The notes below the pieces were generated by a model. The model worked only from the letters and a program-made list of their open reading frames with translations, did not search any database and was not told where the DNA came from. Of a stretch of 64,000 bases of DNA, positions 45,974 to 63,886 are shown in pieces. Each line of letters begins with the position of its first letter. Within the stretch, counting starts at the first letter, position 1. The stretch spans positions 186,001 through 250,000 of the forward strand of contig NZ_JAIVAE010000006.1 in NCBI RefSeq assembly GCF_020171785.1, in the 5' to 3' direction. A program made the position numbers and the translations under genes. The DNA is from Guptibacillus hwajinpoensis. Lineage in GTDB: Bacteria > Bacillota > Bacilli > Bacillales > Guptibacillaceae.

Positions 45974-47269
<1,296 letters not shown>

Positions 47270-47277
47270 GTTGAATT

Positions 47278-47440: not shown

Positions 47441-47612
47441 ACCACTCTTATCGGAACGACGTCTACTAAAACAGTCGTTACCGTTCAAGAAGTGTTAACA
47501 CAATGTTAAGAAGGTATGAGAATGTCCTGTATTACCGAAATAGATTGCTTTTACTGAAAAAATTATGGTAAATTTATAGTATTGGAAAGGCTATAGTCCG
47601 GGAGGTGGAATC

Positions 47613-47843
47613 ATGCATCTTGCAGCAACAATTGCATTAGTTATCGTTTCAATCTTACTTATTACTGTCGTCTTGCTTCAGTCAGGTAAAAGCGCCGGAT
47701 TATCAGGAGCGATTACGGGTGGAGCTGAGCAACTATTCGGAAAGCAGAAGGCCCGCGGTTTTGAAGCGGTTTTAAATAGAGTAACGGTAGTACTTGCCGT
47801 ATTGTTCTTTGTTCTTTCAATTCTCGTTGCCTATCTTGTGTAA
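47613..47843 (+). CDS. secG: Preprotein translocase subunit SecG
   Basis: 76 residues. Two membrane helices: [17 protein letters not shown] and [17 protein letters not shown]. They flank the conserved cytosolic loop [28 protein letters not shown]. Third component of the SecYEG channel. GGGAGGTGG ribosome binding site. The order secG-est-rnr-smpB-ssrA is conserved in Bacillus. Confidence 0.96.
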
Positions 47844-47854
47844 CGATAGTGAGA

Positions 47855-47888
47855 AAGCAGCAGGTGTTGAGTCACTTGCTGCTTTTTT
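47855..47888 (+). terminator. Terminator after secG
   Basis: AGCAGCAGGTG / CACTTGCTGCT 11-bp stem with one G-U, 6-nt loop, then six T. Confidence 0.88.
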
Positions 47889-48069
47889 CTTTGGAGGAAG
47901 CGAAAAGGAAGTTTTTTGTCGAATGGATCAGGGAAATAAGCTATGAGAACGAATTCCTTTTGCCTTCCGACTGAAACAGGTAAAATGCAGATAAAGACCT
48001 CATGAGACTGGATATTTCGTTTTTTGTGGGTCAAACTAACAGGTAGTTGATTTAGAGGAGGATCACATC

Positions 48070-48816
48070 ATGAAAGTAGTAGCACCAAAGCCATTTACAT
48101 TCGAGGGAGGCAATCGCGCGGTATTAATGTTGCATGGCTTTACTGGTAATTCAGCAGATGTACGAATGATGGGACGTTATTTGCAGGAAAGAGGCTATAC
48201 ATGCCACGCACCGCAGTATGAGGGACATGGTGTTCCACCTGAACAGCTCGTTCATACGGGTCCACAAGATTGGTGGAAAAACGTCACTGAAGGGTATGAA
48301 AAGTTGAAAAGCATGGGTCATGATGAAATTGCGGTTGTCGGCTTATCACTTGGAGGCGTATTTTCTTTAAAGCTCGGTTATACTGTTCCTGTAAAGGGAA
48401 TCGTGCCCATGTGTGCCCCGATGGATATGAAAGACGAAGAAACCATGTATCAAGGTGTCCTTTCCTATGCGAGAGAATACAAGAAATTTGAACGAAAAAC
48501 TCCTGAACAAATTGAAGAGGAAATGGAAGCTTTCAAAGAAACGCCAATGAATACGCTTGGAGAACTTCGAGACTTAATCTATGATGTGCGTGATAACATT
48601 GATATGATTTATGCGCCAACATTCGTGGTACAGGCAAGACATGATGAGATGATTAATACAGAAAGTGCTAACGTGATTCATGATCATGTTGAATCGGATG
48701 AAAAGAGCTTGAAATGGTACGAGAATTCCACGCATGCGATTACGCTTGGAAAAGAGAAAGAAGTGCTTCATCAAGATGTCCACGCGTTTCTCGATGGACT
48801 TGATTGGTCTGAATAA
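48070..48816 (+). CDS. est: Carboxylesterase Est (YvaK, Est30 family)
   Basis: 248 residues, alpha/beta hydrolase. Oxyanion loop [12 protein letters not shown], nucleophile Ser93 in GLSLGG, Asp192 (ARHDEMIN) and His222 (NSTHAITL). Related to Est30 of Geobacillus, hydrolysing short and medium chain esters; the natural substrate is unknown. AGGAGG ribosome binding site. It lies between secG and rnr, a position conserved in Bacillus, suggesting a housekeeping role. Confidence 0.93.
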
Positions 48817-48854
48817 CCTATGGATATATGTTACTAGAAAGAAGGTGGAAGACA

Positions 48855-51182
48855 ATGGCAGAAGAACATGAACAGAAGATATTGAGCTTCATGAAGGACG
48901 AGGCATATAAGCCGCTAACCGTTCAGGAGCTTGAAGAAGTATTTGGTGTAAAAGATTCAAGCGAATTTAAAGAATTCGTCAAAACATTAAACAGTATGGA
49001 AGATGAAGGATTAATCGTTCGCACAAGAAGCAATCGCTACGGGATTCCTGAGAAAATGAACCTTGTTCGCGGAAAGTTACAGGTCCACGCTAAAGGGTTT
49101 GCTTTCCTTATTGCTGATAGCGATACTGGCGAGAAAGATGTCTACATTAATCAGGGTGATCTAGAAGGAGCAATGAACGGTGACCGCGTCATTGTAAGAC
49201 TTCATCAGAAATCTTCTGGCACTCGTCCAGAGGGCACTGTGATACGTATCATCGAGCGTGGTGTGAAACGCACAGTTGGTACATATTCTGATAGCAAGCA
49301 TTTTGGATTTGTTATCGCCGATGATAAACGAATTCCACACGACATTTTTATTCCCAAAGGAGCTACTGGCGGTGCAGTAGACGGTCATAAAGTCGTCGTC
49401 GAGATCACAAAATATCCAGAAGGACGTATGAGCGCGGAAGGTCGCATTACTGAAATTCTTGGGCATAAAAACGATCCAGGCGTTGATATTCTGTCCATTA
49501 TTTATAAACATGAACTGCCGGGTGAATTTCCTGAAGCTGCGATGGAGCAGGCTCACAAAACACCTGATCAAATTGATGAAAAAGAGATTGAAGGAAGACG
49601 GGACCTTCGCGAAGAAACAATTGTCACGATCGACGGGGCAGATGCGAAGGATCTGGATGACGCTGTTAACGTTGTAAAGCTTCCAAACGGCAACTATAAG
49701 CTTGGTGTTCACATCGCAGACGTAACGTATTACGTAACAGAAAACTCTCCAATTGATCAGGAAGCGCTTGATCGCGGTACGAGTGTGTATCTTGTCGATC
49801 GCGTGATTCCAATGATTCCACACCGCTTATCAAACGGAATTTGTAGTTTAAATCCTCAAGTGGATCGCTTAACAATTTCGTGTGAGATGGAAATTACAAC
49901 ACAAGGGGAAGTTGTGAACCATGAGATTTTCCCAAGTGTGATCCGTACAAATGAACGTATGACGTATACAGATGTGCGTAAAATTCTTCAGCGTGAAGAC
50001 GATGACGTGTTAGAGCGATATAAATCTCTCGTTCCATTCTTCGATAGCATGGGAGAACTAGCTGAAATTTTAAGAAAAGGTCGTTTCGAACGAGGTGCAA
50101 TTGATTTTGATTTTGCAGAAGCAAAAGTGCTCGTCGATGAAGAAGGAGCCCCTCAAGAGATTGTTCAACGAGAACGCTCGGTAGCTGAACGCTTAATTGA
50201 AGAATTTATGCTTGTCGCCAATGAAACTGTTGCACAACATTTTCACTTTATGGAAGTACCGTTCATGTACCGTATTCACGAAGATCCAGATGCAGACAAG
50301 CTAAATACGTTTTTTGAATTTATCACGAACTTTGGCTACGTTGTACGCGGGAATGCGAATACCGTACACCCACGTGCCCTGCAAAAGCTTCTTGAAGAAG
50401 TGAAGGGAGAGCCTGAAGAAGCTGTTATTAGTAAAGTAATGCTTCGTTCGATGCAACAGGCAAAATACTTCCCTGAAAGTCTAGGTCACTTTGGGTTATC
50501 GACAGATTTCTATACGCATTTCACATCACCAATCCGTCGTTATCCTGACTTAATCGTACACCGTTTAATCCGTACGTACCTATTTGAGAAAAAACTGGAT
50601 AACCAGACAACTTCAAAGTGGGGCGAAGCACTTGGTGAAATTGCTCAGCACGCTTCCGCGATGGAACGTCGAGCAGTTGACGCTGAACGCGAAACTGATG
50701 ATCTGAAAAAAGCTGAGTTTATGAAAGATAAAATCGGGGAAGAGTTCGAAGGTGTCATTAGTGGTGTAACGAACTTCGGTTTGTTTGTAGAGTTGCCAAA
50801 TACGATTGAAGGTCTTGTTCACGTTAGTTATTTAACCGATGACTACTACCATTACGATGAAGGTGCTTATGCAATGATCGGTGAACGTACCGGTAACGTA
50901 TACCGCATCGGTGATGAAATCGCCATTCGCGTCTTAAATGTGAATATTGATGAGCGAGCAATTGACTTCGAAATAGTGGGGATGAAGCCACCGAAAGAGC
51001 GTCGTCGTAGAGAAAGTCCAAAAGTCATTGAAGGCGGAAAGCGCAAGAAGCGTGGAAAGTCCTCAAATAAAACAACAGATGCAGGGAAGAAAAAGCGTAA
51101 GTTCTCTCCGCCAAAGGATGGTCAGGGAACGAAAAAGAAACCGAAAAACAAAAAGAAAAAGCGTCGCAATAACAATGCCTAA
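48855..51182 (+). CDS. rnr: Ribonuclease R
   Basis: 775 residues, 3'-5' exoribonuclease of the RNase II family. N-terminal winged helix ([20 protein letters not shown]), two cold-shock domains (~65-220), RNB catalytic domain with [16 protein letters not shown] (four Asp), S1 domain (~620-705: [20 protein letters not shown]). A Lys/Arg-rich tail ([12 protein letters not shown]... [16 protein letters not shown]) is used in tmRNA-linked non-stop mRNA decay. ATG 48855 with AAGGTGG upstream. It functions together with the smpB-ssrA pair directly downstream. Confidence 0.97.
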
Positions 51183-51204
51183 TTAGCTTAATTTTAATCA
51201 CGGC

Positions 51205-51237
51205 GGTCAGAGTAAGTCATCTTGACTTATTCTGACC
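51205..51237. other. 15-bp dyad overlapping the smpB promoter
   Basis: GGTCAGAGTAAGTCA and TGACTTATTCTGACC are inverted around TCT, with one G-U or mismatch. The second arm contains most of the smpB -35 hexamer. There is no T tract after it on the plus strand. Confidence 0.75.
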
Positions 51238-51250
51238 AAATTGATATACT
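51222..51250 (+). promoter_or_regulatory. Sigma-A promoter of smpB
   Basis: TTGACT (51222-51227), 17 nt, TATACT (51245-51250), 30 bp before the ATG. Confidence 0.85.
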
Positions 51251-51280
51251 GGAGTTCGACGCTTGAGAGGGGGGACGGTC

Positions 51281-51748
51281 ATGCCAAAAGGTGATGGTGG
51301 ACTCATTGCACAAAATAAGAAAGCTAGACACGATTATTCCGTTATTGAAACATATGAAGCAGGACTGGTTCTACAAGGAACTGAAATCAAATCCATCAGG
51401 GCAAGACGCGTAAACCTGAAAGACTCTCACGCCATTATCCGTAAGGGAGAAATCTTTCTTCTGAATATGCACATCAATGAATATGAGCAGGGAAATCGTT
51501 TTAACCACGATCCAACCCGAACTCGTAAGCTATTGATGAAGCGGAAAGAGATTGATAAGCTCATTGGCCTAACGAAAGAACAGGGCTACACGGTCATTCC
51601 ACTAAAAGTTTATATTAAAAATGGCTATGCGAAAGTACTTCTTGGCCTTGCGAAAGGTAAGAAAAAGTACGATAAGCGCCAGGATCTTAAAGATAAGACA
51701 ATGAAGCGTGAAGTGGACAAAGCGTTGAAAGAGCGTCAGCGGATATAG
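51281..51748 (+). CDS. smpB: SsrA-binding protein SmpB
   Basis: 155 residues, beta barrel with basic C-terminal tail. Binds tmRNA and delivers it to stalled ribosomes for trans-translation. [40 protein letters not shown] and the tail [20 protein letters not shown] are family hallmarks. ATG 51281 behind GAGGGGGGACG; the in-frame start at 51263 is at the ribosome binding site. ssrA begins ~100 bp downstream. Confidence 0.98.
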
Positions 51749-51755
51749 TTTCCAT

Positions 51756-51783
51756 TTGATTGGAAGCTGATTTATGTTATAAT
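51756..51783 (+). promoter_or_regulatory. Promoter of ssrA
   Basis: TTGATT (51756-51761), 16 nt, TATAAT (51778-51783), about 65 bp before the mature tmRNA 5' end. Confidence 0.75.
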
Positions 51784-51849
51784 TAAAATTACCGAAACAG
51801 CAGATGAAGCTTAACTGCTTACCCGTTTTCGGTTCTCATTTTCTTACAT

Positions 51850-52208
51850 GGGGACGTTACGGATTCGACAGGGGTAGGTCGAGCTTAAGTCGCGAGTCGA
51901 GTTGGCGAGCTACGTTAAAAACGCCACGCCTATAACTGGCAAAGAAAACAACAACTTCGCACTAGCAGCGTAAGCTGTTTTGCGGTTCCTCCCTCCATCG
52001 CCCATGTGGTAGGGTAAGGGACTCAACTTAAGTGGGATACGCCAACAATCCACCGTCTGAGGAAAGTTGGAAGAGATTAACCAGACTAGCTACAAGGAAG
52101 CCTGTCGTTGGGCTGAATTGTAGTGAAACGCTAATATAACGACTACACTCGTAGAAGCTTAAGTGCCGATACTTCTGGACGTGGGTTCGACTCCCACCGT
52201 CTCCACCA
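51850..52208 (+). ncRNA. ssrA: Transfer-messenger RNA (tmRNA, SsrA)
   Basis: 359 nt. tRNA-like ends: 5' GGGGACG pairs with 3' CGTCTCC (52198-52204), then A and encoded CCA at 52206-52208; the T-arm GTGGG-TTCGACT-CCCAC is intact. The tag frame begins at GGC 51938 and reads GKENNNFALAA before TAA at 51971-51973, a normal ALAA-type degron. The last 94 nt belong to a 102-bp segment repeated at the far end of the genomic island, so the gene is intact but its 3' end is an attachment site. Confidence 0.97.
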
Positions 52209-52216
52209 AATACATA
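52115..52216 (+). repeat. Attachment site attL (102-bp direct repeat, first copy)
   Basis: 102 bp identical to 62658-62759. It starts in the tmRNA body, includes the T-arm and the CCA end, and continues 8 bp beyond. The bases on either side differ between the copies. Confidence 0.93.
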
Positions 52217-52254
52217 CGGTGGAAATACAGTAATATCAACGATTATAAAGTTAT

Positions 52255-52299
52255 GGGGTATTGAACAGGAGTTGAACTCTTGCTCAATACCCCTATTTT
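52255..52299 (+). terminator. Element-borne replacement terminator downstream of ssrA
   Basis: A very stable 38-nt hairpin: GGGGTATTGA / TCAATACCCC, one mismatch, then CAGGAGT / ACTCTTG around a TGA loop, followed by TATTTTC. It is the first strong terminator after tmRNA in the present arrangement. Confidence 0.8.
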
Positions 52300-52340
52300 C
52301 TTACTTGGGGATATCTACTACATATTTGAACTGATCATAG

Positions 52341-52372
52341 ACCTTCTAATACATCAATTAGGAGGTTTTTTT
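52341..52372 (+). terminator. Hairpin with T tract overlapping the integrase ribosome binding site
   Basis: ACCTTCTAAT / ATTAGGAGGT, 10 bp with one G-U and a 6-nt loop, then seven T. The 3' arm holds the AGGAGG used for the integrase start at 52373. Confidence 0.75.
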
Positions 52373-53353
52373 GTGATAGTTAATAACAGAAAGCACGGCA
52401 TCTTTTCTGTACCTGAGGAAGCTAGACAATTAAGCTATAACCAAGATAACAAACATAGTACAATAACAATTAAGGACGCACTGACTAACGTATTCCAACA
52501 AATGAGAGTGTCTGGTAATCGTGAACGAACAATTGAAAGTTATAATTATATTTTTAAGCAGTTTGTTGACATGACTCAGATCCAATACGTGGAAGATATT
52601 ACATTAGACAGTATTTACAGCTATCTTGATGCATTGAACGTATCAAGGGAAACAAAACTCATTCGACTTAAATCACTAAAGGCTATCCTATCCCGCTTTC
52701 ACAACAATGGTTGGGTACAGAAAAAATTCTGGTCAACTATTCAAATTAAAATTGATAAGAAGGTTAAAAAGGGGACAGCAGAAGAAGATATTAAAAAGCT
52801 CATAACTCTTATTGATCAAAGTACCTTTATAGGCTTACGAGATACCGTTGCCATACTAATGATGTACAAGACTGGAATACGTATTAGGACTATAGGAGAA
52901 TTACTGGAGCAACATATAGACTTTGATAACTTGTGTTTAAATCTTGATGGATCAATTATGAAAAATCACAACTATTTAAAGTTGCCAATTGACGATGAAC
53001 TAGCAAATATGCTTAAGGCACTCATCTATATGAATAGTAGAATCCGATCATATTATAATCGAAACAATACTAATGTATTTATCACACAAAATGGCTGCTC
53101 CTTGAATAGTAGTAAATCATCAAATAATGCTATTTCAAAGCAATTAAATAAATATAGTAAAATATATGGTTTAGAGAATATCAATGCACATGCACTTAGA
53201 AGAGCATATGCTAAGGATCTACTAAATAAGGGTGCAAGTGTACCGCTTATTAGTAAGGCTTTGGGACATTCAGATATAGCTGTCACTACACAATACTTAG
53301 AATTAGATGTAGATGAGGTAGCAAACGATTTGCGTAAATATATATATAATTAA
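52373..53353 (+). CDS. int: Tyrosine recombinase (integrase) of the island
   Basis: 326 residues, phage integrase family. N-terminal SAM-like core-binding domain (~30-125), catalytic domain ~135-326 with Arg in MMYKTGIRIRTIGELL (~residue 167), the HALRRAYAKDL box (~272), LGHSDIAVTTQYLEL with His (~298) and the nucleophile Tyr (~307). It probably recombines the tmRNA 3' end. GTG 52373 behind AGGAGG; an upstream in-frame stretch to 52280 overlaps two hairpins and is unlikely to be translated. It lies 164 bp from the tmRNA end, reading away from it. Confidence 0.92.
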   Translation: MIVNNRKHGIFSVPEEARQLSYNQDNKHSTITIKDALTNVFQQMRVSGNRERTIESYNYIFKQFVDMTQIQYVEDITLDSIYSYLDALNVSRETKLIRLKSLKAILSRFHNNGWVQKKFWSTIQIKIDKKVKKGTAEEDIKKLITLIDQSTFIGLRDTVAILMMYKTGIRIRTIGELLEQHIDFDNLCLNLDGSIMKNHNYLKLPIDDELANMLKALIYMNSRIRSYYNRNNTNVFITQNGCSLNSSKSSNNAISKQLNKYSKIYGLENINAHALRRAYAKDLLNKGASVPLISKALGHSDIAVTTQYLELDVDEVANDLRKYIYN

Positions 53354-53420
53354 CTTATGTGGAAATGTACTATTGATTATTTAATTCAATTTCGGGTGTA
53401 AGAAAGGTGATTATTTACTA

Positions 53421-55175
53421 GTGGATAACTTGATACTGGAGCAAATGAAACAGCAATTACAACATGAAGTAAAAAATGGGACAAATGATCCTAATAGATT
53501 CCATGTATATGCTTGGGAAGCGGGATTAGGAAAAAGCACACATGTGAATAATAGTATTAGAGAATATTTTAACGATCATGGATTCGAGAGTAATGTTAAT
53601 AAGTATTTAATAGTAAAAAAATTCAAAACTGATGTGTATGAAACTGTAGAACAGTTAGAAAAAAGTGATGCGTTAAAAATGTATGGTGATTATGGTGTTC
53701 TTGGGATAACAGGTGATAATATTGCTTCCTATACAACAGAACAAGTTAGAAACTGCAAAGTGCTTGTAATCACTCATACAAGGTATATAGCTGCATGCGA
53801 AAAAGAACTAATAGAATCTTTTGGTAAAAGAGATGTGTTAATAATTGATGAGCAAGTGCAGTTCCCTGTAATGAAATTCGGGCGAGCTGAGTACAATACA
53901 AAACGTCAACAAATCCATTTATATGAAGGACAAGCTTTGTTTGATAAATGCTTGTTACCATTATTAGAATGGTTAGATACTATATACAAAGAAAAAGAAT
54001 ATAATAATATCATTACTTTCAAAGGCGAATTTAGTAAAGAGCCGCTAAATGATTTTAAAAAGTGGGTTAAGAAAAATACTAATGCTGGGAGAAAAAATAA
54101 GTATAACGAATTAGTTCAAGAAATAGAATCCTTATACAATAAGAATAATTTAGGATTTATCCATAATGATACTCTGTTTTTTATTGACCAAGGTAAACGA
54201 TTCCGAAAATTAAAATCTAATATCATTCTAGATGCTAGTGCTGACATTACTCCATTGTATCAATTAAAAAATCATTTTAATGTAGTAGAGAAGAGATTAA
54301 GTATAAATCATTCACAATCTAAAATTATGTGCATGCCAGTTAATACAAGTAAAAGTGGTATGAAAAACTATCGAGATAACATAATTAAGGATATTCAGCA
54401 TAGGCTGCGAAAGATGAAAAACATTGATAAGCAGGCGCTTATTGTGTGCCATAAAGAGAATTCTACTGAATTACTAACTGGTCTAAAGCAAACTTTAGGT
54501 GAGAAGATATATATTCCAAATGAAGAATCTATGGAAGAAGAAGCTCTTCAAACGATCGCAGCAGTAGATTGGTATGGGAATATTGTCGGGAAAAACACAT
54601 ATAGAGAATATGATATTTGTATGATTGTAGGAACGTTTAACATGCCGCTCCCAGTTTATTTGTTGCAGTTTTTCCAATATAACAGACAAGTTGATCCGAC
54701 TCACCTTCCCGATAAATTGGAGTTAGAAAGCGGTCATTTTAAAAGTGAAAAATTCGAAGAGATCAGAAAGGCTTTTGTTGCCGCTGATTTTTATCAAGCA
54801 GCTAGACGTATACAACGAAATCAAAATCCTAAAGCAGTGTATATTTTATATACTTATGATGAGGATGTTTTGCATGCTTTTAAAAACAAATTCAAGGAAA
54901 TAGGAGATGTACTTTACTTAAACAGGGAAAGTATTATGGAGAAAGAGGTTTCTCCTCGAAAAGAAAAAGCGATTCAAATGTTAATGTATATAGCAGAAAA
55001 CGTTGAGGTAGGAGAACTTATTGCTAAGCAGAATTTGGCTCATGCAATAGGTGTATCTGAAAGCAATTTTTCTAGGTATTTAAAAAATGATGTTATGCAA
55101 AAGCATGTAGAACAAGAGCATATTGAAATCAGAAACAAAGATATAATAAAAAAGTCTGACTTTGTAGTTGTATAG
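53421..55175 (+). CDS. Divergent P-loop (SF2 helicase-like) protein with C-terminal HTH; function unknown
   Basis: 584 residues, soluble, AT-rich coding. Walker A-like AWEAGLGKSTHVNN (~residues 31-44) and Walker B VLIIDEQVQF (~139-148, DEQ in place of DEAD/DEAH). A second lobe (~310-500) has LIVCHKENSTELLTGLKQ (motif IV-like), DICMIVGTFNMPLPVYLLQF (motif V-like) and AARRIQR (motif VI-like, ~455). The last 60 residues carry an HTH: LAKQNLAHAIGVSESNFSRYL type. GTG start, ribosome binding site AAAGGTGA at slightly long spacing. It sits alone between the integrase and the structured RNA. It may be a replication, excision or defence ATPase; I do not recognise a named family. Confidence 0.75.
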   Translation: MDNLILEQMKQQLQHEVKNGTNDPNRFHVYAWEAGLGKSTHVNNSIREYFNDHGFESNVNKYLIVKKFKTDVYETVEQLEKSDALKMYGDYGVLGITGDNIASYTTEQVRNCKVLVITHTRYIAACEKELIESFGKRDVLIIDEQVQFPVMKFGRAEYNTKRQQIHLYEGQALFDKCLLPLLEWLDTIYKEKEYNNIITFKGEFSKEPLNDFKKWVKKNTNAGRKNKYNELVQEIESLYNKNNLGFIHNDTLFFIDQGKRFRKLKSNIILDASADITPLYQLKNHFNVVEKRLSINHSQSKIMCMPVNTSKSGMKNYRDNIIKDIQHRLRKMKNIDKQALIVCHKENSTELLTGLKQTLGEKIYIPNEESMEEEALQTIAAVDWYGNIVGKNTYREYDICMIVGTFNMPLPVYLLQFFQYNRQVDPTHLPDKLELESGHFKSEKFEEIRKAFVAADFYQAARRIQRNQNPKAVYILYTYDEDVLHAFKNKFKEIGDVLYLNRESIMEKEVSPRKEKAIQMLMYIAENVEVGELIAKQNLAHAIGVSESNFSRYLKNDVMQKHVEQEHIEIRNKDIIKKSDFVVV

Positions 55176-55193
55176 AAACTCGTCACCTCCCCT

Positions 55194-55199
55194 TATAAT
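55194..55199 (+). promoter_or_regulatory. -10 element of a possible RNA gene
   Basis: TATAAT, 18 bp after the stop of the P-loop gene. The best -35 is TTGTAT at 55168-55173 with a long 20-nt spacer, so support is modest. Confidence 0.45.
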
Positions 55200-55205
55200 A
55201 TAATG

Positions 55206-55399
55206 AAGATGACGAGATGAGTTAGGAGGCTGTAAATATAATAAAACCATTATTTTATTCACAACTACAATATGCGATTGAAGAGTTTACTTTTTGCGAA
55301 GCAAGAAGTGAACTCTATCGAGGAGTGCAACAGTGAGGAACGAGCGTTGCATGGGCTGATAAGCCAGAAGTAGAGCATTGCTCTACTTCTTTTTCTTTT
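55206..55399 (+). ncRNA. Putative structured RNA or leader in the island
   Basis: The 337-bp gap 55176-55512 contains four consecutive hairpins. (1) A 16-bp stem, 55282-55297 with 55301-55316, GAA loop, two G-U. (2) GTGCAAC / GTTGCAT at 55325-55352, with a 14-nt loop. (3) GGCT / AGCC at 55354-55365. (4) An 11-bp terminator stem AGAAGTAGAGC / GCTCTACTTCT at 55366-55390, with T5 after. This is either an independent small RNA or an attenuator leader ending ~115 nt before hsdR. The transcript 5' end is inferred from the TATAAT at 55194. Confidence 0.55.
55366..55399 (+). terminator. Strong terminator closing the structured RNA
   Basis: AGAAGTAGAGC / GCTCTACTTCT perfect 11-bp stem, ATT loop, TTTTTCTTTT. 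Confidence 0.9.
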
Positions 55400-55512
55400 G
55401 CAATGACAAATGGCAGAAGGATTTTGGGATCATCTCACAACAAATACCATTTATCATGTAAAATAGTAATAGATAGTTTATTTATGACAACTATTCAAGG
55501 GGGCGGGATTAG

Positions 55513-57876
55513 TTGAGTAAGTCAAAACAACAAATGACCGAAGAAGATATTAAATTGAAATACATTACACCCGCCATTCAAAAGGCTGAATGGGATATTG
55601 TAAGTGATGTGTTTTGTGAATATAGTTTCACAGATGGTCGGATTATTGTGCGGGGAAATTTAACTACACGTGGTAGACAAAAACGAGCGGATTATCTGCT
55701 TTTTTATAAAAAGAACTATCCTATCGCAATCATTGAAGCAAAAGATAACAAGCATGAAGTAGGAGCAGGTATGCAACAAGCTCTTGATTATGCCAGTATA
55801 CTGGATGTGCCATTTGCATTTTCATCAAATGGTGATGGATTTATTGAACATAATCGGTTAACAGGTATTGAAAGAGAGTTAACATTGGATGAATTTCCTA
55901 CAAGGGAAGAATTATGGAATAATTACGTTGAGAACGCTCATATTACACCTGCTCAAGAGGAAATAATTAATGAACCATATTTTTTTCAATTAGGGGATAA
56001 AACGCCTCGTTACTATCAACGTATTGCTATCAATCGCACAGTTGAAGCAATTGCTAATGGACAAAATAAGATACTGATTGTTATGGCAACTGGTACAGGT
56101 AAAACATATACCGCTTTTCAAATCATATATCGATTATGGAAGGCAGGTAAGAAAAAGAAAGTTTTATTTTTAGCAGATAGAAATGTACTTGTAGACCAAA
56201 CAATGACAAATGATTTTAAACCATTTGATAAAGTAATGACTAAGATTAAAGGTCATAAGCTTGATAGTTCTTATGAAATTTACTTAGCACTTTATCATCA
56301 ATTAGCTGGGGATGATGGAGAAGAGCCATTCCGACAGTTTAAACCAGACTTTTTTGATTTAATTATTGTAGATGAAGCCCATCGTGGTTCAGCAAAAGAG
56401 GATAGTCGTTGGAGAAAAGTATTAAAATATTTTGATACTGAAGATACAACACAAATTGGTCTAACGGCTACTCCAAAAGAAACAAAAGAAGCATCAAATA
56501 TTTCTTACTTTGGTGAACCAGTATATACGTATAGCCTAAATCAAGGAATTGATGATGGATTTCTAGCACCATATAAAGTAGTACGTGTGGGTCTTGATAA
56601 AGATTTAGAAGGTTATCGACCCGAAATTGGAAAGTTAGATATGTATGGGGAAGAAATTGAGGATAGAGAGTATTCTCAAAAAGATTTTGATAAGAATATG
56701 ATTATTGATGCACGTACTGAAGCGGTTGCTAAGCGTATATCACAATTTTTGAAGAAAAGTGATCGGTTTGCTAAAACAATCATATTCTGTGTCGATATAG
56801 ACCATGCAGAGCGGATGCGTAGGGCATTGGGTAATGAAAATAGCGACCTAGTAGCACAAAACGATAAGTATATTATGCGAATTACTGGCGACAACAAAGA
56901 AGGTAAAGCACAGCTAGATAACTTCATTGATAGAGAAAGCAATTACCCTACTATAGTAACTACATCTAAGTTATTAACTACTGGTGTGGATGTGAAAACA
57001 TGTAAGCTTATTGTATTAGATTCTAATATCAATTCAATGACTGAATTTAAGCAAATCATCGGACGGGGAACACGCTTGGATATAGAACATGGAAAAGAGT
57101 ATTTTACAATTATGGATTTCCGTAATGCTAGTCGGTTATTCGCTGACCCCGAATTTGATGGTGACCCTATTTCGATTATAGAGATACCTAATGATGGAGA
57201 TATGGAAATCCCGCCTGGTGAAGAAGGAGAAGAGGCTGGTGGAGACGATGAAGAAACCACAGGTGGTTTAACTGGTACGGATGATGATGATGATAGAGAT
57301 CCACCAAAAGGACGTAAAAGGTATCGCATAAATGATGTAGATGTTCAGATTGTTAACGAACGTGTACAATATTATGATGTAGGTGGTAAGCTCATAACAG
57401 AAAGCTTAACAGACTATACTAGGAAAAATATTCGTAAAGAGTATGCGAATTTAGACGCTTTTCTACGTAAATGGAATGAAGAAGATAGAAAGGAAGTAAT
57501 TATTGAAGCTTTAAAGGAGCGTGGTGTGCTGTTAGATGCGGTGCGGGAGCAAGAACATCTACAAGAACTAGATGAATTCGACTTGATTCTTCATTTCGCA
57601 TATGATCAACCGCCACTAACAAAAGCTGAACGAGTGAAAAATGTGAAAAAAAGAGGATACATCTATCAATATAAAGATATTGCCCATGATGTATTGGAAA
57701 TGATTCTTGAAAAATATAAAGATGAAGGTATTACAGAGATTGAAGGGACAAAAGTTTTGGAATTAAATGAGTTTCAAAAATTCGGAAGCCCGTTAAAGAT
57801 TGTAAAAGCGTTTGGTAATAAGAAAAAATACCTAGAAGCAATCAAAAAATTAAAAGAAGAAATATATCTAGCTTAG
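55513..57876 (+). CDS. hsdR: Type I restriction endonuclease subunit HsdR (EcoEI-like)
   Basis: 787 residues. N-terminal nuclease of PD-(D/E)XK type: RADYLLFYKKNYPIAIIEAK (Asp...Glu-x-Lys, ~residues 57-76). SF2 translocase: Walker A MATGTGKTYTA (~192), DEAH in LIIVDEAHRGS (~283), SAT-like GLTATPKET, motif VI QIIGRGTRLD. A strongly acidic linker (~570-600) precedes a C-terminal domain like that of EcoEI R subunits. Translocates and cuts DNA unmodified at the HsdS target. TTG start behind AAGGGGGCGGG. Ten bases separate it from hsdM, so the three hsd genes form an operon. Confidence 0.95.
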   Translation: MSKSKQQMTEEDIKLKYITPAIQKAEWDIVSDVFCEYSFTDGRIIVRGNLTTRGRQKRADYLLFYKKNYPIAIIEAKDNKHEVGAGMQQALDYASILDVPFAFSSNGDGFIEHNRLTGIERELTLDEFPTREELWNNYVENAHITPAQEEIINEPYFFQLGDKTPRYYQRIAINRTVEAIANGQNKILIVMATGTGKTYTAFQIIYRLWKAGKKKKVLFLADRNVLVDQTMTNDFKPFDKVMTKIKGHKLDSSYEIYLALYHQLAGDDGEEPFRQFKPDFFDLIIVDEAHRGSAKEDSRWRKVLKYFDTEDTTQIGLTATPKETKEASNISYFGEPVYTYSLNQGIDDGFLAPYKVVRVGLDKDLEGYRPEIGKLDMYGEEIEDREYSQKDFDKNMIIDARTEAVAKRISQFLKKSDRFAKTIIFCVDIDHAERMRRALGNENSDLVAQNDKYIMRITGDNKEGKAQLDNFIDRESNYPTIVTTSKLLTTGVDVKTCKLIVLDSNINSMTEFKQIIGRGTRLDIEHGKEYFTIMDFRNASRLFADPEFDGDPISIIEIPNDGDMEIPPGEEGEEAGGDDEETTGGLTGTDDDDDRDPPKGRKRYRINDVDVQIVNERVQYYDVGGKLITESLTDYTRKNIRKEYANLDAFLRKWNEEDRKEVIIEALKERGVLLDAVREQEHLQELDEFDLILHFAYDQPPLTKAERVKNVKKRGYIYQYKDIAHDVLEMILEKYKDEGITEIEGTKVLELNEFQKFGSPLKIVKAFGNKKKYLEAIKKLKEEIYLA

Positions 57877-57886
57877 GAGATTAAAC

Positions 57887-59353
57887 ATGTCTATCACATC
57901 ATTTGTAAAAACATTACAAAACATCATGCGCAATGACGCTGGTATTTCAGGAGATGCACAACGCATTGAGCAAATTGTATGGATACTATTTTTGAAAATT
58001 TATGACGCAAAAGAGGAAATATGGGAGTTCCATAATGATTCTTTTCAATCCATCATACCTGAGGATTATCGTTGGAGAAATTGGGCAGTAGATTACAAAG
58101 ATGGTAAAGCTATGACAGGTGAGGCTTTACTAAACTTCGTAAATGGTGAATTGTTCCCTGTATTAAAAGAAATTGAAGTAGACGAAAATACACCAATAAG
58201 TAAAGCGATTGTGCGTTTTGCTTTCGAGGATGCTTATAACTATATGAAAGATGGTGTATTGCTTCGTCAGGTAATTAATTTTATTGATAGTATTGATTTT
58301 ACGGACTATAAAGAGAGGCATGCTTTCAATGAAATTTACGAACAAATTTTAAAAGATCTACAAGCTCAACGTGCGTCTGGTGAGTTCTATTCACCACGTG
58401 CAACAACAGATTTTATAACTCGGATGATTAAGCCACAATTAGGAGAACGTGTAGCGGATTTTGCATCTGGTACAGGTGGTTTCTTAACATCTGCATTAAA
58501 TTACTTAAAACCACAAGTGAAATCCACAGAGGATAATGAAGTCTATAATAATTCGGTGTTTGGTATAGAAAAAAAAGCATTTCCTTATTTATTAAGTATC
58601 ACAAATTTATTATTGCATGATATTGATGATCCAGTCATTATCCATGGTAACAGTTTAGATAAGAATGTTCGTGAATACAATGAAAACGAGAAGTTTGAAG
58701 TTATAATGATGAATCCCCCATACGGTGGATCAGAAAAAGACAGTATTAAGATGAATTTCCCTGTGGAGTTACGTAGTAGTGAAACAGCGGATTTGTTTTT
58801 ATCAGTCATAATGTATCGTCTAAAGAAGGATGGTCGAGCAGGTGTTATTTTACCAAATGGATTCTTGTTTGGTACTGACGGTGCAAAGAGAGCAATTAAA
58901 GAAAAAATGATTAAAGAATTTAATTTGCATACAATTATTCGTTTACCACATAGTGTGTTTGCTCCTTATACATCTATTCATACGAACATATTGTTCTTTG
59001 ACAAAACACATCCTACAGATGATGTCTGGTTTTACCGCTTAGATATGCCTGAGGGTTATAAAAACTTCTCAAAAACTAAGCCTATCAAGTTAGAGCATTT
59101 CCAACCTGCGATGGATTGGTGGGAAAATCGTAATGTAATCTCTGAAAATGATGGTTTTAAGGCGCAAAAATATAGCGTGCAAGATATTATTGATGATAAC
59201 TACAACTTAGACTTATGTGGATTCCAGCAAGAGGAAGAAATTGTCTTAGAACCACAGGAATTAATTTCTAAATATCAAGAAGAGCGTACGCAATTAAATA
59301 ACGAAATCGATAATATTTTATCAGTAATTCAAGAAATGTTAGGTGAAGATTAA
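57887..59353 (+). CDS. hsdM: Type I methyltransferase subunit HsdM
   Basis: 488 residues. N-terminal helical HsdM_N region (TSFVKTLQNIMRNDAGISGD) and a gamma-class N6-adenine methyltransferase core. SAM motif I VADFASGTGGFLTSAL (~residue 189) and catalytic motif IV MMNPPYGG (~273). The segment QRASGEFYSPRATTDFITRM before motif I is typical. Methylates adenine in both half-sites with HsdS. AGGAG seven bases upstream. Stop and hsdS start share one base (TAATG). Confidence 0.96.
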   Translation: MSITSFVKTLQNIMRNDAGISGDAQRIEQIVWILFLKIYDAKEEIWEFHNDSFQSIIPEDYRWRNWAVDYKDGKAMTGEALLNFVNGELFPVLKEIEVDENTPISKAIVRFAFEDAYNYMKDGVLLRQVINFIDSIDFTDYKERHAFNEIYEQILKDLQAQRASGEFYSPRATTDFITRMIKPQLGERVADFASGTGGFLTSALNYLKPQVKSTEDNEVYNNSVFGIEKKAFPYLLSITNLLLHDIDDPVIIHGNSLDKNVREYNENEKFEVIMMNPPYGGSEKDSIKMNFPVELRSSETADLFLSVIMYRLKKDGRAGVILPNGFLFGTDGAKRAIKEKMIKEFNLHTIIRLPHSVFAPYTSIHTNILFFDKTHPTDDVWFYRLDMPEGYKNFSKTKPIKLEHFQPAMDWWENRNVISENDGFKAQKYSVQDIIDDNYNLDLCGFQQEEEIVLEPQELISKYQEERTQLNNEIDNILSVIQEMLGED

Positions 59354-60813
59354 TGGATGCAAAAAAGCTGGAAGGTTCTATTTTGCAATTTGCCCTTCAG
59401 GGTAAATTAGTACCCCAAGACCCCAAGGAAGAACCAGCTAGTGAATTAGTAGAGCGGATTAAGGCAGAAAAAGAAAGGTTAATTCAAGAGAAGATTATAA
59501 AAAAAGAAAAACTATTGCCTAAAATTACAGAAGAGGAAATTCCTTTTGAAATACCAGAAACATGGGAATGGGTACGAATTAGAGACGTTTATTATAACCG
59601 TGGACAAAAAAAACCTGATAAAGAATTCACTTATATAGACGTAGCTGCGATTGATAATCAGGAAGGTGCATTATCTAATCAATTAAACATTATTGACCCT
59701 CAAAAAGCCCCATCGAGAGCGAGGAAAATATTGGGGGTTGGTGATGTTGTATATGCGACTGTTAGACCTTATCTACTAAACATAGCTGTAATAGATAGAA
59801 ATTTTGAATATGAACCTATAGCAAGTACTGCTTTTGTAGTAATGAAACCTATCCTAATTGATAATGAGTTTTTATACTTTATATTAAAAAGTCCTATGTT
59901 TAATTATCAGGTAGAATCTAAAGTGCAGGGAGTAACTTACCCAGCAATTAATGATACAAATTTTAATAAATTACTAATACCCCTTCCTCCAGTTAAAGAA
60001 CAAAAAAGAATTGTAAGAGCTATAAAAAATATTAAACCGAAAATTGATACTTATAGTGAGAAAAAAAACCGATTGTTTAAAATACAAGAAGCATTTCCTC
60101 ATCAACTTGAAAGATCAATTCTTCAATATGCTATGCAAGGTGATTTAATTAAACAGAATTCAGATGATGAACCAGTTATTAAGTTAATTGATCGTATTAA
60201 AGCAATGAAAGAAAAGTTAATTGAAGAAAAGGTAGTTCCTAAAGAAAAGACATTAACTGAGAATTTAGTAGGAAAATCTCCATTTAAGATACCTACAACA
60301 TGGGAATGGGTGAGGTTAAAAGATATCTGTCAGGTGAATCCTAAAAATAAAGTTCATGATGAAATGAAAGCAGGATTCGTACCAATGAAGTTGATTGATG
60401 ATGGGTTTGTTAATCATCATTCGTTCGAAGTGAAAACTTGGAAGGATATAAAGAAGGGCTTTACACACTTTCAAAACGGAGATGTAGTTATCGCAAAAAT
60501 AACACCTTGTTTTGAAAATCGTAAGTCGACTATTATCAAAGGTCTACCAAATGGAGTAGGTGCAGGAACAACTGAGCTATTTGTTGTTAGACCATTTACA
60601 AACGATATCAATCCTGAGTATTTGCTTTGGTTATTTAAATCCCATCATTTTATTACTAGTGGTGTAGAAACCTATACAGGTACAGCGGGACAACAGAGAG
60701 TGGCTAAAAGCTTTGTTGAAAATTATCTTATACCTCTCCCTCCTGTTGAAGAACAGAACAGGCTTGTTCAAGCAATAAATAAAGTACATGAAAGTATTAG
60801 TAAAATGAAATAA
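59353..60813 (+). CDS. hsdS: Type I specificity subunit HsdS
   Basis: 486 residues. Two target recognition domains, ~70-215 and ~315-475. Each is introduced by the same conserved module: LEGSILQFALQGKLVPQ near residue 5 and LERSILQYAMQGDLIKQ near residue 253, then AEKERLIQEKIIKKEK / AMKEKLIEEKVVPKEK coiled coils and ETWEWVR / TTWEWVR. TRDs end LIPLPPVKEQ and LIPLPPVEEQ. It determines the bipartite DNA target, which cannot be read from sequence alone. No second, silent hsdS is nearby. Confidence 0.95.
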   Translation: MDAKKLEGSILQFALQGKLVPQDPKEEPASELVERIKAEKERLIQEKIIKKEKLLPKITEEEIPFEIPETWEWVRIRDVYYNRGQKKPDKEFTYIDVAAIDNQEGALSNQLNIIDPQKAPSRARKILGVGDVVYATVRPYLLNIAVIDRNFEYEPIASTAFVVMKPILIDNEFLYFILKSPMFNYQVESKVQGVTYPAINDTNFNKLLIPLPPVKEQKRIVRAIKNIKPKIDTYSEKKNRLFKIQEAFPHQLERSILQYAMQGDLIKQNSDDEPVIKLIDRIKAMKEKLIEEKVVPKEKTLTENLVGKSPFKIPTTWEWVRLKDICQVNPKNKVHDEMKAGFVPMKLIDDGFVNHHSFEVKTWKDIKKGFTHFQNGDVVIAKITPCFENRKSTIIKGLPNGVGAGTTELFVVRPFTNDINPEYLLWLFKSHHFITSGVETYTGTAGQQRVAKSFVENYLIPLPPVEEQNRLVQAINKVHESISKMK

Positions 60814-60842
60814 ATTATTACATATCATTTAACTACACCCTA

Positions 60843-60904
60843 TTGATACAAAATGTTGTGCTAGTGTTATTGGTGTTTTGTAGTGTATCATATACATGTA
60901 TCAA
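60843..60904. repeat. Repeated TTGATACA / TGTATCAA units before the serine recombinase
   Basis: TTGATACA at 60843-60850, TGTATCA at 60884-60890 and TGTATCAA at 60897-60904. The first is inverted relative to the other two. Placed immediately upstream of the recombinase gene they could be subsites of a res/crossover site or an operator. Confidence 0.5.
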
Positions 60905-60930
60905 AACACTTTGGTGAATGGAGTAGTTCT

Positions 60931-61509
60931 ATGAGATATGGTTATGCACGTGTGTCTTCTGTTGGACAAAATTTAGATGCTCAAGTAAAACAGCTTCAAG
61001 AGCATCAATGTAATGTGATCTTTCAAGAAAAGGTTAGTGGTCGTAATAAAGATAATCGTTTGGAATTAAAAAAGTTGTTAGATACCGTACAAAAAGGTGA
61101 AACAATTATTGTTACTAAGTTAGATCGCTTCGCTCGTAGTACAAAAGATGCTTTAGCAACAATTGAACTACTCAACGATAAACAAGTTAACTTAATTGTT
61201 TTGAACATGGGTGGAGATAAGGTAGATACATCTACAGCTATCGGTAAGCTCATGATTACTGTATTAAGCGGTATAGCTGAATTTGAAGCGGATATGATTA
61301 AGGAAAGACAACTTGAAGGAATTGAACTAGCGAAGCAACGTGGTATTTACAAAGGTCGCCCGAAGCGTTATACCGATAAACATAAAGGTTTACAACATGC
61401 TATTGAGCTTTACAACAAGCGAGATGAGAATAAACTAACAGTGAATGAAATTAGCGAAATTACAAAGGTCAGCCGTGCAACTTTATATAGAACTGTTAAA
61501 GAGCAGTGA
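60931..61509 (+). CDS. Serine recombinase, resolvase/invertase family
   Basis: 192 residues. Catalytic domain MRYGYARVSSVGQNLDAQ with the nucleophile Ser in ARVSS (~residue 9-10), Arg residues in VTKLDRFARSTKDA (~residues 65-75), the E helix EFEADMIKERQLEGI, and GRPKRYTDK linker. The C-terminal HTH is LTVNEISEITKVSRATLYRTVKE. Typical of Tn3-type resolvases and Hin/Gin invertases. ATG 60931 has GGAG eight bases upstream and starts the conserved domain; an upstream in-frame GTG-rich stretch to 60883 is not needed. No transposase partner is visible; it follows hsdS by 117 bp. Confidence 0.93.
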   Translation: MRYGYARVSSVGQNLDAQVKQLQEHQCNVIFQEKVSGRNKDNRLELKKLLDTVQKGETIIVTKLDRFARSTKDALATIELLNDKQVNLIVLNMGGDKVDTSTAIGKLMITVLSGIAEFEADMIKERQLEGIELAKQRGIYKGRPKRYTDKHKGLQHAIELYNKRDENKLTVNEISEITKVSRATLYRTVKEQ

Positions 61510-61666
61510 AATAAAGAGGATATATCCACTTCTTCAATTTGCCAAAGGGGGGATATTTTCCTCTTTTTTCAGCTCTTCTATATAGCAATAGGTGTATAGT
61601 AGGTGCATCTACACATTACTATATGGAAACTACCGATACGAGGCGAGTTTTTAGTTACATGTATAG

Positions 61667-62455
61667 TTATAATAGCTTATTTCGCACAAAACGACTTGCA
61701 TAAGTTTCTGCGGTAGAATAACTATGTATTATATTTATATTCTCATGATTGTACATTGCTTTGTTTGTCCAATTGTATGAACCGTTTATTACTGTTTTTA
61801 AGTCTATTACGCAAAATTTTTCATGAAATATATTATCTTGAAAAGCTCCGAAACCAGTTTTTCTATATGTTTCAAAATAATTTTCAAAATCAAATCCAGT
61901 TTGTGAATTAATATCATCCTTATTAATTATGAGTTGAATATTAATACCCTGAGATGCTTTCTTTTTTAAGATGCTAAAGAGTGTATTATCTGTAAACCAT
62001 GCAACTGATACCCAGATTGTAAATTTAGCTTGTGTTAATTGTTCCAATATTTCACTTTGAATATTTTCAAAAGAGGTTTGAATCTCTATAATATCTTCTG
62101 GAATTAATCCTTCTCCTGTTACAACAAATTCATCCTGTTCATTCCTCTGTAAGGCATACCCACAATATTTAATGATTTCGTTTATAGGTTCTATTAAATC
62201 TGAGGCTATATTGATATCACTTCCAAGATATGTTCTTGAATATACAATATGGTTCATAAATCTTTCAAGTTGTTTTGAGTTATTGATGTCCTCTAACTTT
62301 GATAAAGTGTAATCACTCCTAGATGGAAACCCTCTAGCATAAACATCTTCACTACCATATTGATTAAATAAATCTACTAATTCTGGACCTGTTCGATAAT
62401 AACACTCATTGATGTATGGTACTAAATGTTTTAACGCAATTTCATCCAATTTCAA
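61667..62455 (-). CDS. PLD-like nuclease protein, possible abortive-infection type effector
   Basis: 262 residues. C-terminal half is one phospholipase-D-like domain: HKD-type motif IFHEKFCVIDLKTVINGSYN (His-x-Lys-x4-Asp, ~residues 211-218) followed by WT, preceded by KFTIWVSVAWFTDNTLFSIL. One HKD motif implies a dimeric nuclease of the Nuc/BfiI kind. The N-terminal ~115 residues are helical (SDYTLSKLEDINNSKQLERF, then a GYALQR turn), resembling small modules I remember from Abi-type proteins; that part is tentative. TTG start with AGAAGGGAT upstream. It is the only cargo gene on the minus strand and ends the island beside attR. Probable role: phage defence. Confidence 0.75.
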   Translation of the reverse strand: MKLDEIALKHLVPYINECYYRTGPELVDLFNQYGSEDVYARGFPSRSDYTLSKLEDINNSKQLERFMNHIVYSRTYLGSDINIASDLIEPINEIIKYCGYALQRNEQDEFVVTGEGLIPEDIIEIQTSFENIQSEILEQLTQAKFTIWVSVAWFTDNTLFSILKKKASQGINIQLIINKDDINSQTGFDFENYFETYRKTGFGAFQDNIFHEKFCVIDLKTVINGSYNWTNKAMYNHENINIIHSYSTAETYASRFVRNKLL

Positions 62456-62657
62456 AGTTTATCTATCCCTTCTAATTATTTTAATAATATTATATCTATT
62501 AACAAGGAACATTTGGGAAAAGCTTTAAAACTTGCTAGTAATTAGTATATAATGATTCACAGAAGGTCTCCGAACTCAGTTCGTAAATATGTAATACTCC
62601 CTAATAATAATAATCGTTAATGATGGCACTTCTAAGTCTTACTGTTAAAGGGACTAA

Positions 62658-62759
62658 GAATTGTAGTGAAACGCTAATATAACGACTACACTCGTAGAAG
62701 CTTAAGTGCCGATACTTCTGGACGTGGGTTCGACTCCCACCGTCTCCACCAAATACATA
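62658..62759 (+). repeat. Attachment site attR (102-bp direct repeat, second copy)
   Basis: Second copy of the ssrA 3' segment, including the T-arm and CCA. Without the 5' part it cannot make tmRNA. Immediately after it lies the native ssrA terminator. The 202-bp stretch 62456-62657 before it shows no gene. Confidence 0.93.
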
Positions 62760-62777
62760 TTTGGTGGTTTTTTATTT
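62746..62777 (+). terminator. Native ssrA terminator, displaced by the island
   Basis: CCACCAAATA / TATTTGGTGG, a perfect inverted repeat with two central bases, followed by TTTTTTATTT. Its left arm begins at the CCA end of the tmRNA sequence. In the intact ssrA at 52208 only the left arm remains. Confidence 0.88.
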
Positions 62778-62807
62778 GGAAAAAATCATAGCATATAGGA
62801 ACCCTTG

Positions 62808-62837
62808 GCCCACCCTTTGACGGACTGGGCTTTTTTT
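62808..62837 (+). terminator. Second plus-strand terminator beyond attR
   Basis: GCCCA / TGGGC stem with a 13-nt loop and seven T. It converges on the minus-strand DUF4188 gene. Confidence 0.55.
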
Positions 62838-63333
62838 AACGTGATTTTCCTTCCTCGGTATACTTTTTATTCAGACGCTTATTGAAAGAGTCAGCTTGTG
62901 GAGTGACCTTAATCGATCCTAGCGCTTTTCCTAAGCCAAATACGGGCATGTTACCATAAAGACTTTCGTAATGAGAGTTCGGAAGGACATATGTTTCGTG
63001 GTAGATCCCAACAGCACGGTTGTTTCCAATTTTTTGATTAAAGTTCTTCCATGCTTTTAGATGGGCTTGTCCATGCGCATATTGACGGAGATCTTCAGAA
63101 GAGCGCCAGTATTGAAGAAGTAGCGTTGTTCGGAAGCTAAAGAAATTTTCCATTGAGAGGCAACCTAACTGCTTGTTAATGCTAAGTTCACGAATCATAC
63201 CAGGCATCGCAAGAAAAACGGGTAGCCACTTATGCACAGCCCACCATTGATTGATTCGCATTCCAATGAGAAAGACGACAACATCCTGTCCTTTATCTAC
63301 CGTGTAGCGCCCTTTGAATACTTGATTTGCCAT
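62836..63333 (-). CDS. DUF4188 domain-containing protein
   Basis: 165 residues. Resembles the DUF4188 family, which has a dimeric alpha/beta-barrel like that of small monooxygenases: FKGRYTVDKGQDVVVFLIGM, QYWRSSEDLRQYAHGQAHLK, NNRAVGIYHETYVLP. Function uncharacterised; often next to a PadR or MarR regulator, as here. ATG 63333 behind AAGGAGG; upstream in-frame codons to 63366 cover that site. It starts 13 bp after the padR-type gene, so they form a two-gene operon, perhaps a detoxification or heme/redox response. Confidence 0.8.
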   Translation of the reverse strand: MANQVFKGRYTVDKGQDVVVFLIGMRINQWWAVHKWLPVFLAMPGMIRELSINKQLGCLSMENFFSFRTTLLLQYWRSSEDLRQYAHGQAHLKAWKNFNQKIGNNRAVGIYHETYVLPNSHYESLYGNMPVFGLGKALGSIKVTPQADSFNKRLNKKYTEEGKSR

Positions 63334-63346
63334 TTCTCTTTCCTCC

Positions 63347-63886
63347 TTAAAGTACGTTTTTAGCATTCATCACCCAATCATTAGCTGCTTCCGTTGTCCG
63401 TATTCCATAATCCAATGTGAGGAGCCAGAATTTTGCCTCTTCCTGATCACCGTAAGTCCCATATATCATTTCTTTAATTGCGTGATACGTATTCAGCCGT
63501 TCTTGAAGTTTTGAATGGTAATGATCTAATTGCTTTAAGGTTATTTCAGTGCTCTGATGATGACTGAAAAAAAGTTTAAGTAAAAGCTCATTTTTTTCTA
63601 CGCCGATTTCCTGAATAGGCGTTTCCATCCAGTCTTTAAGAGCCTCCCACCCCAAGGAGGTTAGTTGATATTCCTTTTTATCGGGCTTCCCTGACGTGCT
63701 CTCCTCTTGCACTGTAATGAGTTTTTCATCAAGGAGTTTTTTAAGGGTTGGATATATTTGTCCGTAGCTGATTTTCCAAAAATGATTTAAACTTCCATCC
63801 ATCATTTTCTTCATTGAATATCCCGTTTGACAACCAATTGTTAATAATCCAAGAATCGCATATTTCGTATGCATTTGCTTTTCCAC
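63347..63886 (-). CDS. PadR family transcriptional regulator
   Basis: 179 residues. N-terminal winged helix: TKYAILGLLTIGCQTGYSMK, FWKISYGQIYPTLKKLLDEK (recognition helix), then a beta-wing TSGKPDKKEYQLTSLGWEAL. C-terminal VirR-like dimerisation helices ~95-179 (LLKLFFSHHQSTEITLKQLD). PadR proteins repress neighbouring genes and respond to small molecules; the likely target is its own operon with the DUF4188 gene. GTG start with AGGATGTG upstream; ATG four codons later is an alternative. Confidence 0.9.
   Translation of the reverse strand: MEKQMHTKYAILGLLTIGCQTGYSMKKMMDGSLNHFWKISYGQIYPTLKKLLDEKLITVQEESTSGKPDKKEYQLTSLGWEALKDWMETPIQEIGVEKNELLLKLFFSHHQSTEITLKQLDHYHSKLQERLNTYHAIKEMIYGTYGDQEEAKFWLLTLDYGIRTTEAANDWVMNAKNVL

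Follow-up and report, generated by a model that had tools for sequence, protein, structure and literature searches.

The DNA analyzed here is a stretch of 64,000 nucleotides from Guptibacillus hwajinpoensis (contig NZ_JAIVAE010000006.1, positions 186,001 to 250,000), referred to below as the window. At the 3' end of ssrA, the gene for transfer-messenger RNA (tmRNA), the window carries an island with seven main genes, namely, those for a tyrosine integrase, a helicase, the type I restriction-modification (RM) proteins HsdR, HsdM, and HsdS, a serine recombinase, and a PLD-domain protein. The corresponding open reading frames (ORFs) are all open in the window copy. We observed that the helicase, for which there was no match in Pfam (E <= 0.1) or NCBIfam (E <= 0.01), recurs in other small mobile elements. 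The features of the island are compiled in Table 1; all coordinates are window positions, and the letters L and G designate the loci and genomes compared, respectively. Pfam and NCBIfam scans covered the seven main island proteins and the PHROGs scan four of them, with short ORFs left out.

Table 1. Features of the island at ssrA and of its two ends
Feature	Position	Strand	Evidence
ssrA (tmRNA), attachment gene	51850..52208	+	ARAGORN; Rfam RF00023, 224.7 bits
Left attachment (att) repeat, 102 bp	52115..52216	+	Direct repeat D1, 100%
Hairpin, then T-rich stretch, inside the island	52255..52302	+	Folds of attL, empty site, and attR
Hairpin containing the ribosome-binding site of the integrase gene (AGGAGG at 52360-52365, assigned by eye)	52339..52368	+	Terminator-like scan; fold
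Tyrosine integrase	52373..53353	+	PF00589 E 1.7e-25, PF13495 E 3.7e-06; GTG start picked by eye
Predicted XPD/DinG-type superfamily 2 (SF2) helicase, 584 aa, with C-terminal winged-helix-like domain	53421..55175	+	AlphaFold, Foldseek
Inverted repeat (CTCGTCA/TGACGAG) with an AT-rich spacer, directly past the helicase stop codon	55179..55216		p 0.033 versus 60 shuffles
Structured noncoding stretch (hairpins, then terminator)	55283..55399	+	Fold; terminator; 12-nt motif common to L037
hsdR, EcoAI/FtnUII type	55513..57876	+	NF046051 1155.5 bits, cut-off 550
hsdM	57887..59353	+	PF02384 E 1.9e-63
hsdS, two target-recognition domains	59353..60813	+	PF01420, two stretches
Small serine recombinase (resolvase/invertase)	60931..61509	+	PF00239 E 1.8e-40
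PLD-domain protein, one HxKxxxxD motif (by eye)	61667..62455	-	PF13091 E 5.7e-21; DrmC- and Stk2-like stretches, PADLOC
Promoter-like site, right end	62524..62553	+	10/12 consensus matches
Right att repeat, 102 bp	62658..62759	+	Direct repeat, 100% identical to left copy
Former terminator of ssrA, displaced to the right end	62746..62767	+	Terminator scan; follows ssrA in empty sites

A repeat search over positions 51500-63500 retrieved a single family of 102-nt repeats with a copy spacing of 10,543 nt; since the runner-up direct repeat in this interval measured only 21 nt, a chance origin is excluded. The repeat comprises the final 94 nt of tmRNA and 8 nt past its end, and the left copy leaves ssrA intact. 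Between the att copies the GC content is 0.30-0.37, compared with 0.41-0.45 to the left (44000-51999) and 0.38-0.41 in the right flank. The initial annotation of this DNA had proposed that the ssrA 3' end (94 plus 8 nt) is exactly duplicated 10,543 bp downstream and that AT-rich DNA between the copies holds an integrase, type I RM genes, a serine recombinase, and a PLD protein; the repeat search and the family matches bear out both statements. It had also predicted the sequence of the empty site, which was set as a test in 14 genomes of the same genus, the island's own included. The ssrA query matched twice in the island's own genome and in G004, and once in each of the remaining 12, which lack the island at the tmRNA site. 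Ten of these 12 relatives carry exactly the predicted junction, CCACCAAATA(C/T)ATA-TTTGGTGGTTTTTT, and the other two (G001 and G012) a variant with the same terminator, in which one base was lost and one gained. The junction implies that the element came between ssrA and its own terminator, leaving the latter at the right end; the hairpin with T-rich stretch inside the island may stand in for it. In the excised circle, the promoter-like site at the right end would point at the integrase, although such sites were no commoner than in shuffled sequences (45 versus 52.2). Three traits, i.e., att repeats where a tRNA-like gene ends (3'), an adjacent tyrosine integrase, and matching empty sites in relatives, mark the island as a site-specific integrative element. 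It is thus a well-bounded element integrated at tmRNA, of a known general kind.

Genome G004 carries the same island (locus L021). Its integrase and helicase genes are 99.5% and 99.1% identical to those of the window, hsdR 96.1%, and the PLD gene 99.2%, corresponding to differences of 0.5%, 0.9%, and 3.9% for integrase, helicase, and hsdR, respectively. Outside the island, identity amounts to 87.4% for rnr (over 183 bases) and 93.0% for smpB; the 5' part of ssrA is more conserved (98.5%). Because the integrase and helicase genes are 99% identical while the rnr and smpB stretches reach 87 to 93%, the island moves horizontally and is exchanged between lineages. The initial annotation had taken the long perfect repeat as a sign of recent insertion. 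The comparison does not support this: the att copies are identical within G004 as well, yet differ from those of the window at 3 of 102 positions, and a repeat whose copies agree within genomes and differ between them dates no insertion. The hsdS of G004 differs from that of the window, and its hsdM is joined in frame to part of an hsdS (L021:8391-10637), which is possibly a rearranged specificity unit.

The helicase had been labeled a P-loop/helix-turn-helix protein in the initial annotation; structure prediction now makes it an XPD/DinG-type helicase. Its AlphaFold model (mean pLDDT, 90.1) found its best matches in XPD and DinG structures (Foldseek to XPD, E 7.6e-15), and an SF2 fold and helicase motifs are present by prediction. 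Residues G37 K38, D143 E144, and Q459, R463, and R466 are invariant across 47 relatives and are read as Walker A, Walker B, and motif VI, whereas the last secondary-structure elements of the model are read as a winged helix. The protein stands apart from the XPD/DinG chains listed in the search, with which it shares 8 to 14% identity, by this winged-helix-like tail and by the absence of a conserved set of four cysteines for an Fe-S cluster; only two alignment columns contained at least 50% cysteine among the 47 sequences. CasDinG is likewise not known to have such a cluster. PHROGs provided nothing better than E 0.02.

Relatives of this helicase were compiled in two ways. Among 397 order-level genomes, 9 had a match at the protein level, own and G004 included, and an alignment-based scan retrieved 43 loci in bacterial genomes (mostly Bacillota, as judged by titles) and 7 in viral contigs, which amount to 49 distinct loci since L084 duplicates L054. 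Scans with the single helicase sequence retrieved no relative. The closest relative is from Sporosarcina sp. P13 (53% identity), and the remainder share 19 to 32%. The midpoint-rooted tree of 47 helicases, displayed without support values and built without L085, whose helicase frame is broken, contains groups of 20, 22, and 5 members. A number of observations can be derived from these loci. (i) A tyrosine-integrase gene, assigned by BLAST clustering, lies within 10 kb of the helicase in 27 of the 49 loci, and in 13 it is located upstream on the same strand. Six of these 13 are bounded by repeats of 59 to 187 bp, giving elements of 11 to 16 kb, and further ones may have been missed since loci were cut at 10 kb. 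Three bounded elements (L041, L042, and L044) are inserted at guaA, recognized by eye, and belong to the window's group; L069 at tRNA-Val and L077 at tRNA-Leu belong to the third group, and L085 lies at an unidentified site. The helicase frame of L042 is interrupted. (ii) The group of 20, to which the window belongs, includes integrase elements and the viral contigs L080 to L083. Terminase or tail genes were found on three of the four viral contigs checked (L080, L082, and L083), and none was detected among the two proteins scanned of L081. (iii) The group of 22 contains all 18 loci (of 49) with a ParM-like gene within 10 kb, the 13 loci with a Tn7-type TnsA, and the six with BrxL. Some relatives are found in phage contigs or Tn7-like loci. 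(iv) Serine recombinase genes lie within 10 kb in 13 of the 49 loci. (v) In two relatives, the N-terminal part matches a domain of primase type (phrog_13901; E 5.2e-18 and 1.8e-13). Literature searches of titles and abstract beginnings revealed no name or description for the elements marked by this helicase, and within the literature searched the family looks undescribed.

Two further observations concern these loci. The 13 TnsA loci (within 10 kb; L049, L056, L057, L058, L062, L063, L064, L066, L067, L071, L076, L078, and L079) include a ParM-like gene in 10, a 23S-IVP-type four-helix gene in 11, and BrxL in 5, so that transposon genes are combined in an uncommon way with maintenance genes of plasmid type. 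The Paenibacillus contig L044 (NZ_FNVF01000027.1, 11,402 bp) is spanned over its entire length by a helicase element, and its two 69-bp ends are identical and similar to the guaA end in L041; it could represent a circle after excision or a contig that the assembly broke at the repeats.

The noncoding DNA that follows the helicase gene had been annotated initially as a structured RNA, and as a fold it is real: positions 55176-55420 gave a z score of -6.06, none of 200 shuffled sequences was equally stable, and a hairpin resembling an intrinsic terminator (55366-55390) closes the structured stretch. No Rfam family matched at E values up to 1. The stretch is a putative RNA or a putative region for the control of replication, and it may combine an RNA with an origin or be just one of the two. 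The window's z score is the lowest of 47 post-helicase gaps, for which the median was -1.73, compared with -0.78 for 130 control gaps (p 0.003). After a gap of 147 to 2069 nt, the helicase gene is followed by an ORF of 100 aa or longer in 46 of the 47 members. L037 retains the inverted repeat and the 12-nt motif after its helicase. In a test that was designed after the first examples had been seen, inverted repeats with a TATA-containing spacer after the stop codon were found (p < 0.05 versus shuffles) in 9 of 47 members, where about 2 were expected; eight of the nine, the window included, belong to the window's clade of 20.

Several other candidate features of this region were rejected. The noncoding stretch differs between G004 and the window at 1 of 337 positions, compared with 5 of 982 in the integrase gene and 16 of 1755 in the helicase gene, so that its conservation is not clearly stronger. 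Tandem repeats occurred in 14 of 47 downstream gaps and in 35 of the 248 control gaps, whose average length is smaller; they were dropped as a common origin feature because only L063 and L076 had strong ones. A small ORF thought to be conserved behind the helicase was discarded, its frames being broken in L041 and L042, and covariation between the window and L037 alone was too weak, with both bases altered in 6 of 26 pairs and a poor alignment. At gathering scores, Rfam detected nothing besides one tRNA in the loci of seven relatives. In L058, L062, and L071, about 1 to 1.2 kb of post-helicase DNA without a long ORF is 75 to 90% identical across species of three genera; this shared DNA had no Rfam match.

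Integrase relatives (E <= 1e-40) were present in 27 of the 397 order-level genomes, own and G004 included. Twenty-three of the other 25 loci adjoin tRNA-Arg(TCT), one (L110, broken) adjoins tmRNA, and in one no site was detected; tmRNA is therefore a rare target among them. The tRNA-Arg(TCT) integrases of the same order were the closest relatives found (41 to 61% identity). In Neobacillus drentensis (L047), a further integrase relative (49% identity) adjoins tRNA-Arg(TCT) and precedes a gene related to the helicase; a scan of viral contigs retrieved none. In another genus, L114 (genome G196) contains a broken integrase relative directly after tmRNA (1236-2518), with no helicase in the flanks searched; for the stretch checked (2001-3300), no second copy lay downstream.

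As to the remaining genes, HsdR, HsdM, and HsdS matched NF046051, PF02384, and PF01420, respectively, above cut-off, and on these family matches the system is classified as type I RM of the EcoAI/FtnUII type. The PLD-domain protein is a probable nuclease. Just upstream of the serine recombinase lies a palindromic stretch (60830-60925; GTGTTTTG...CAAAACAC), a candidate res site recognized by eye. In comparisons of the island DNA with plasmid records, only part of hsdR was matched, at 71% in 4 records, and phage records gave no match. In the Pfam and NCBIfam scans, none of the seven main proteins matched a relaxase family. To illustrate the cargo of related elements, ten proteins per scan were hand-picked as defense-like from L039, L040, L042, L044, L047, L050, and L085, of which L042, L044, and L085 are bounded; L041, L069, and L077 were left out. 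Nine of ten matched Pfam (Mrr, DUF2326, AbiJ, caspase, AIPR, NACHT, sacsin/NO VEIN, OLD, and GmrSD) and nine of ten matched PADLOC. Defense-type genes are thus found in three of the six bounded elements (L042, L044, and L085); since the proteins were picked as defense-like, the sample shows occurrence and not frequency.

With moderate confidence, we interpret the island as a compact, site-specific integrative element that measures 10,543 bp when one att copy is counted. In this reading, the helicase would maintain the circle after excision or copy it, type I RM is the cargo, and transfer depends on a helper. The tyrosine integrase would recombine a copy of the tmRNA 3' end, and recombination through this copy accounts for an intact ssrA on the left and for a 94-nt remnant with the original terminator on the right. 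The backbone would consist of the integrase, the XPD/DinG-type helicase, and the structured region that follows it, which would serve as origin or control RNA for the excised circle. The serine recombinase probably resolves multimers, and the RM system, perhaps together with the PLD protein, would be defense cargo. A helper, either a phage or a conjugative element, would move the DNA; it would be needed because no relaxase or virion gene was found. The term defense island, used in the initial annotation, is appropriate for the RM genes, but the helicase is likelier to be part of the element backbone than of the defense.

A number of points weigh against this interpretation. (i) We infer excision, replication, and transfer from sequence. 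(ii) The neighbor counts come from loci selected by the helicase. (iii) The helicase was absent from all 25 related integrase loci (flanks of about 1.5 kb searched) and unmatched in 50,697 phage records, and its single match in the plasmid set is distant (25%). (iv) Neither the loci with ParM neighbors nor the two relatives with the primase-type domain belong to the window's clade; the latter two come from one genome, and Pfam detected no primase domain in them. (v) Across the family, folding downstream of the helicase is only modestly special. (vi) The serine recombinase of G004 is a 5'-truncated pseudogene. A bolder version is distinctly doubtful, namely, that the helicase and the adjoining site form a self-contained replication module in which an SF2 initiator helicase would bind the inverted repeats and open the AT-rich spacer between them. 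The analogue is the herpesvirus protein UL9, which acts in much this way at oriS. If true, this module would define a large unnamed family of defense-carrying integrative elements.

Phage-inducible chromosomal islands (PICIs) share with the window island the size, the integrase, and a replication-type gene, and it is conceivable, though somewhat unlikely, that the island is a satellite of this type, replicated and packaged with a helper phage. The tmRNA site and the position of the integrase as first gene would agree with this, as would the transduction of a Pseudomonas tmRNA island with RM cargo by a jumbo phage (PMC12595487). However, neither the Pfam and NCBIfam scans of seven island proteins nor the PHROGs scan of four of them, short ORFs being outside both, revealed a phage regulator, terminase, capsid, or interference gene, or a packaging gene such as PICIs have; PHROGs gave only weak helix-turn-helix-type matches to packaging or CII-like families (E 0.0079 and worse), and the phage set lacks the island DNA, as stated above. 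That the helicase is itself antiviral, and the island a pure defense cassette moved by integrase and helper without replication of its own, is unlikely. CasDinG and Hna, an anti-phage protein, are also among the fold-search matches, PADLOC gave a weak type IV DinG match (E 0.0019), and some relatives lie near defense-type genes; against this stand the primase-type domain of two relatives, the ParM neighbors, the viral contigs with terminase or tail genes, and a cargo that varies between elements sharing the helicase, by which they were chosen. An immobile remnant of a prophage or island, suggested by its presence in only 2 of 14 same-genus genomes and by the broken resolvase and rearranged hsdM-hsdS of G004, is very improbable in view of the roughly 99% identity of integrase and helicase genes compared with 87 to 93% for rnr and smpB, the seven open ORFs, and the 12 relatives without an island at the same site.

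The initial annotation could match the island to no named element. Its general kind is known (PMC12595487, PMC5862659), but the searches made gave no name for the helicase-marked family. The Pseudomonas tmRNA islands I23, I44, and I55 are described in the former as having flanking direct repeats, a tyrosine integrase, and putative defense cargo (PMC12595487). They resemble the window island in the tmRNA 3' target, repeats, integrase, putative defense cargo (type II RM in I55), and lack of autonomous transfer genes, but belong to another phylum, have a 14-bp repeat and an AlpA gene at the 3' end (102 bp and no AlpA found in the window), and are presented without mention of a DinG-type helicase in the text examined (PMC12595487). 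Cryptic integrated elements with PrimPol-PV1 primases sit at tRNA, the GMP synthase gene, or tmRNA, and one class is without conjugation and phage genes (PMC5862659). Common to both is a replication protein as hallmark and integration sites that include tmRNA; the hallmark is a primase in those elements and a DinG-type helicase without primase domain in the window (PMC5862659).

Many small defense islands are without explained movement or maintenance. A helicase family that recurs beside integrases provides a sequence handle for finding such elements, and the helicase itself is a testable candidate for what allows an element to persist after excision.

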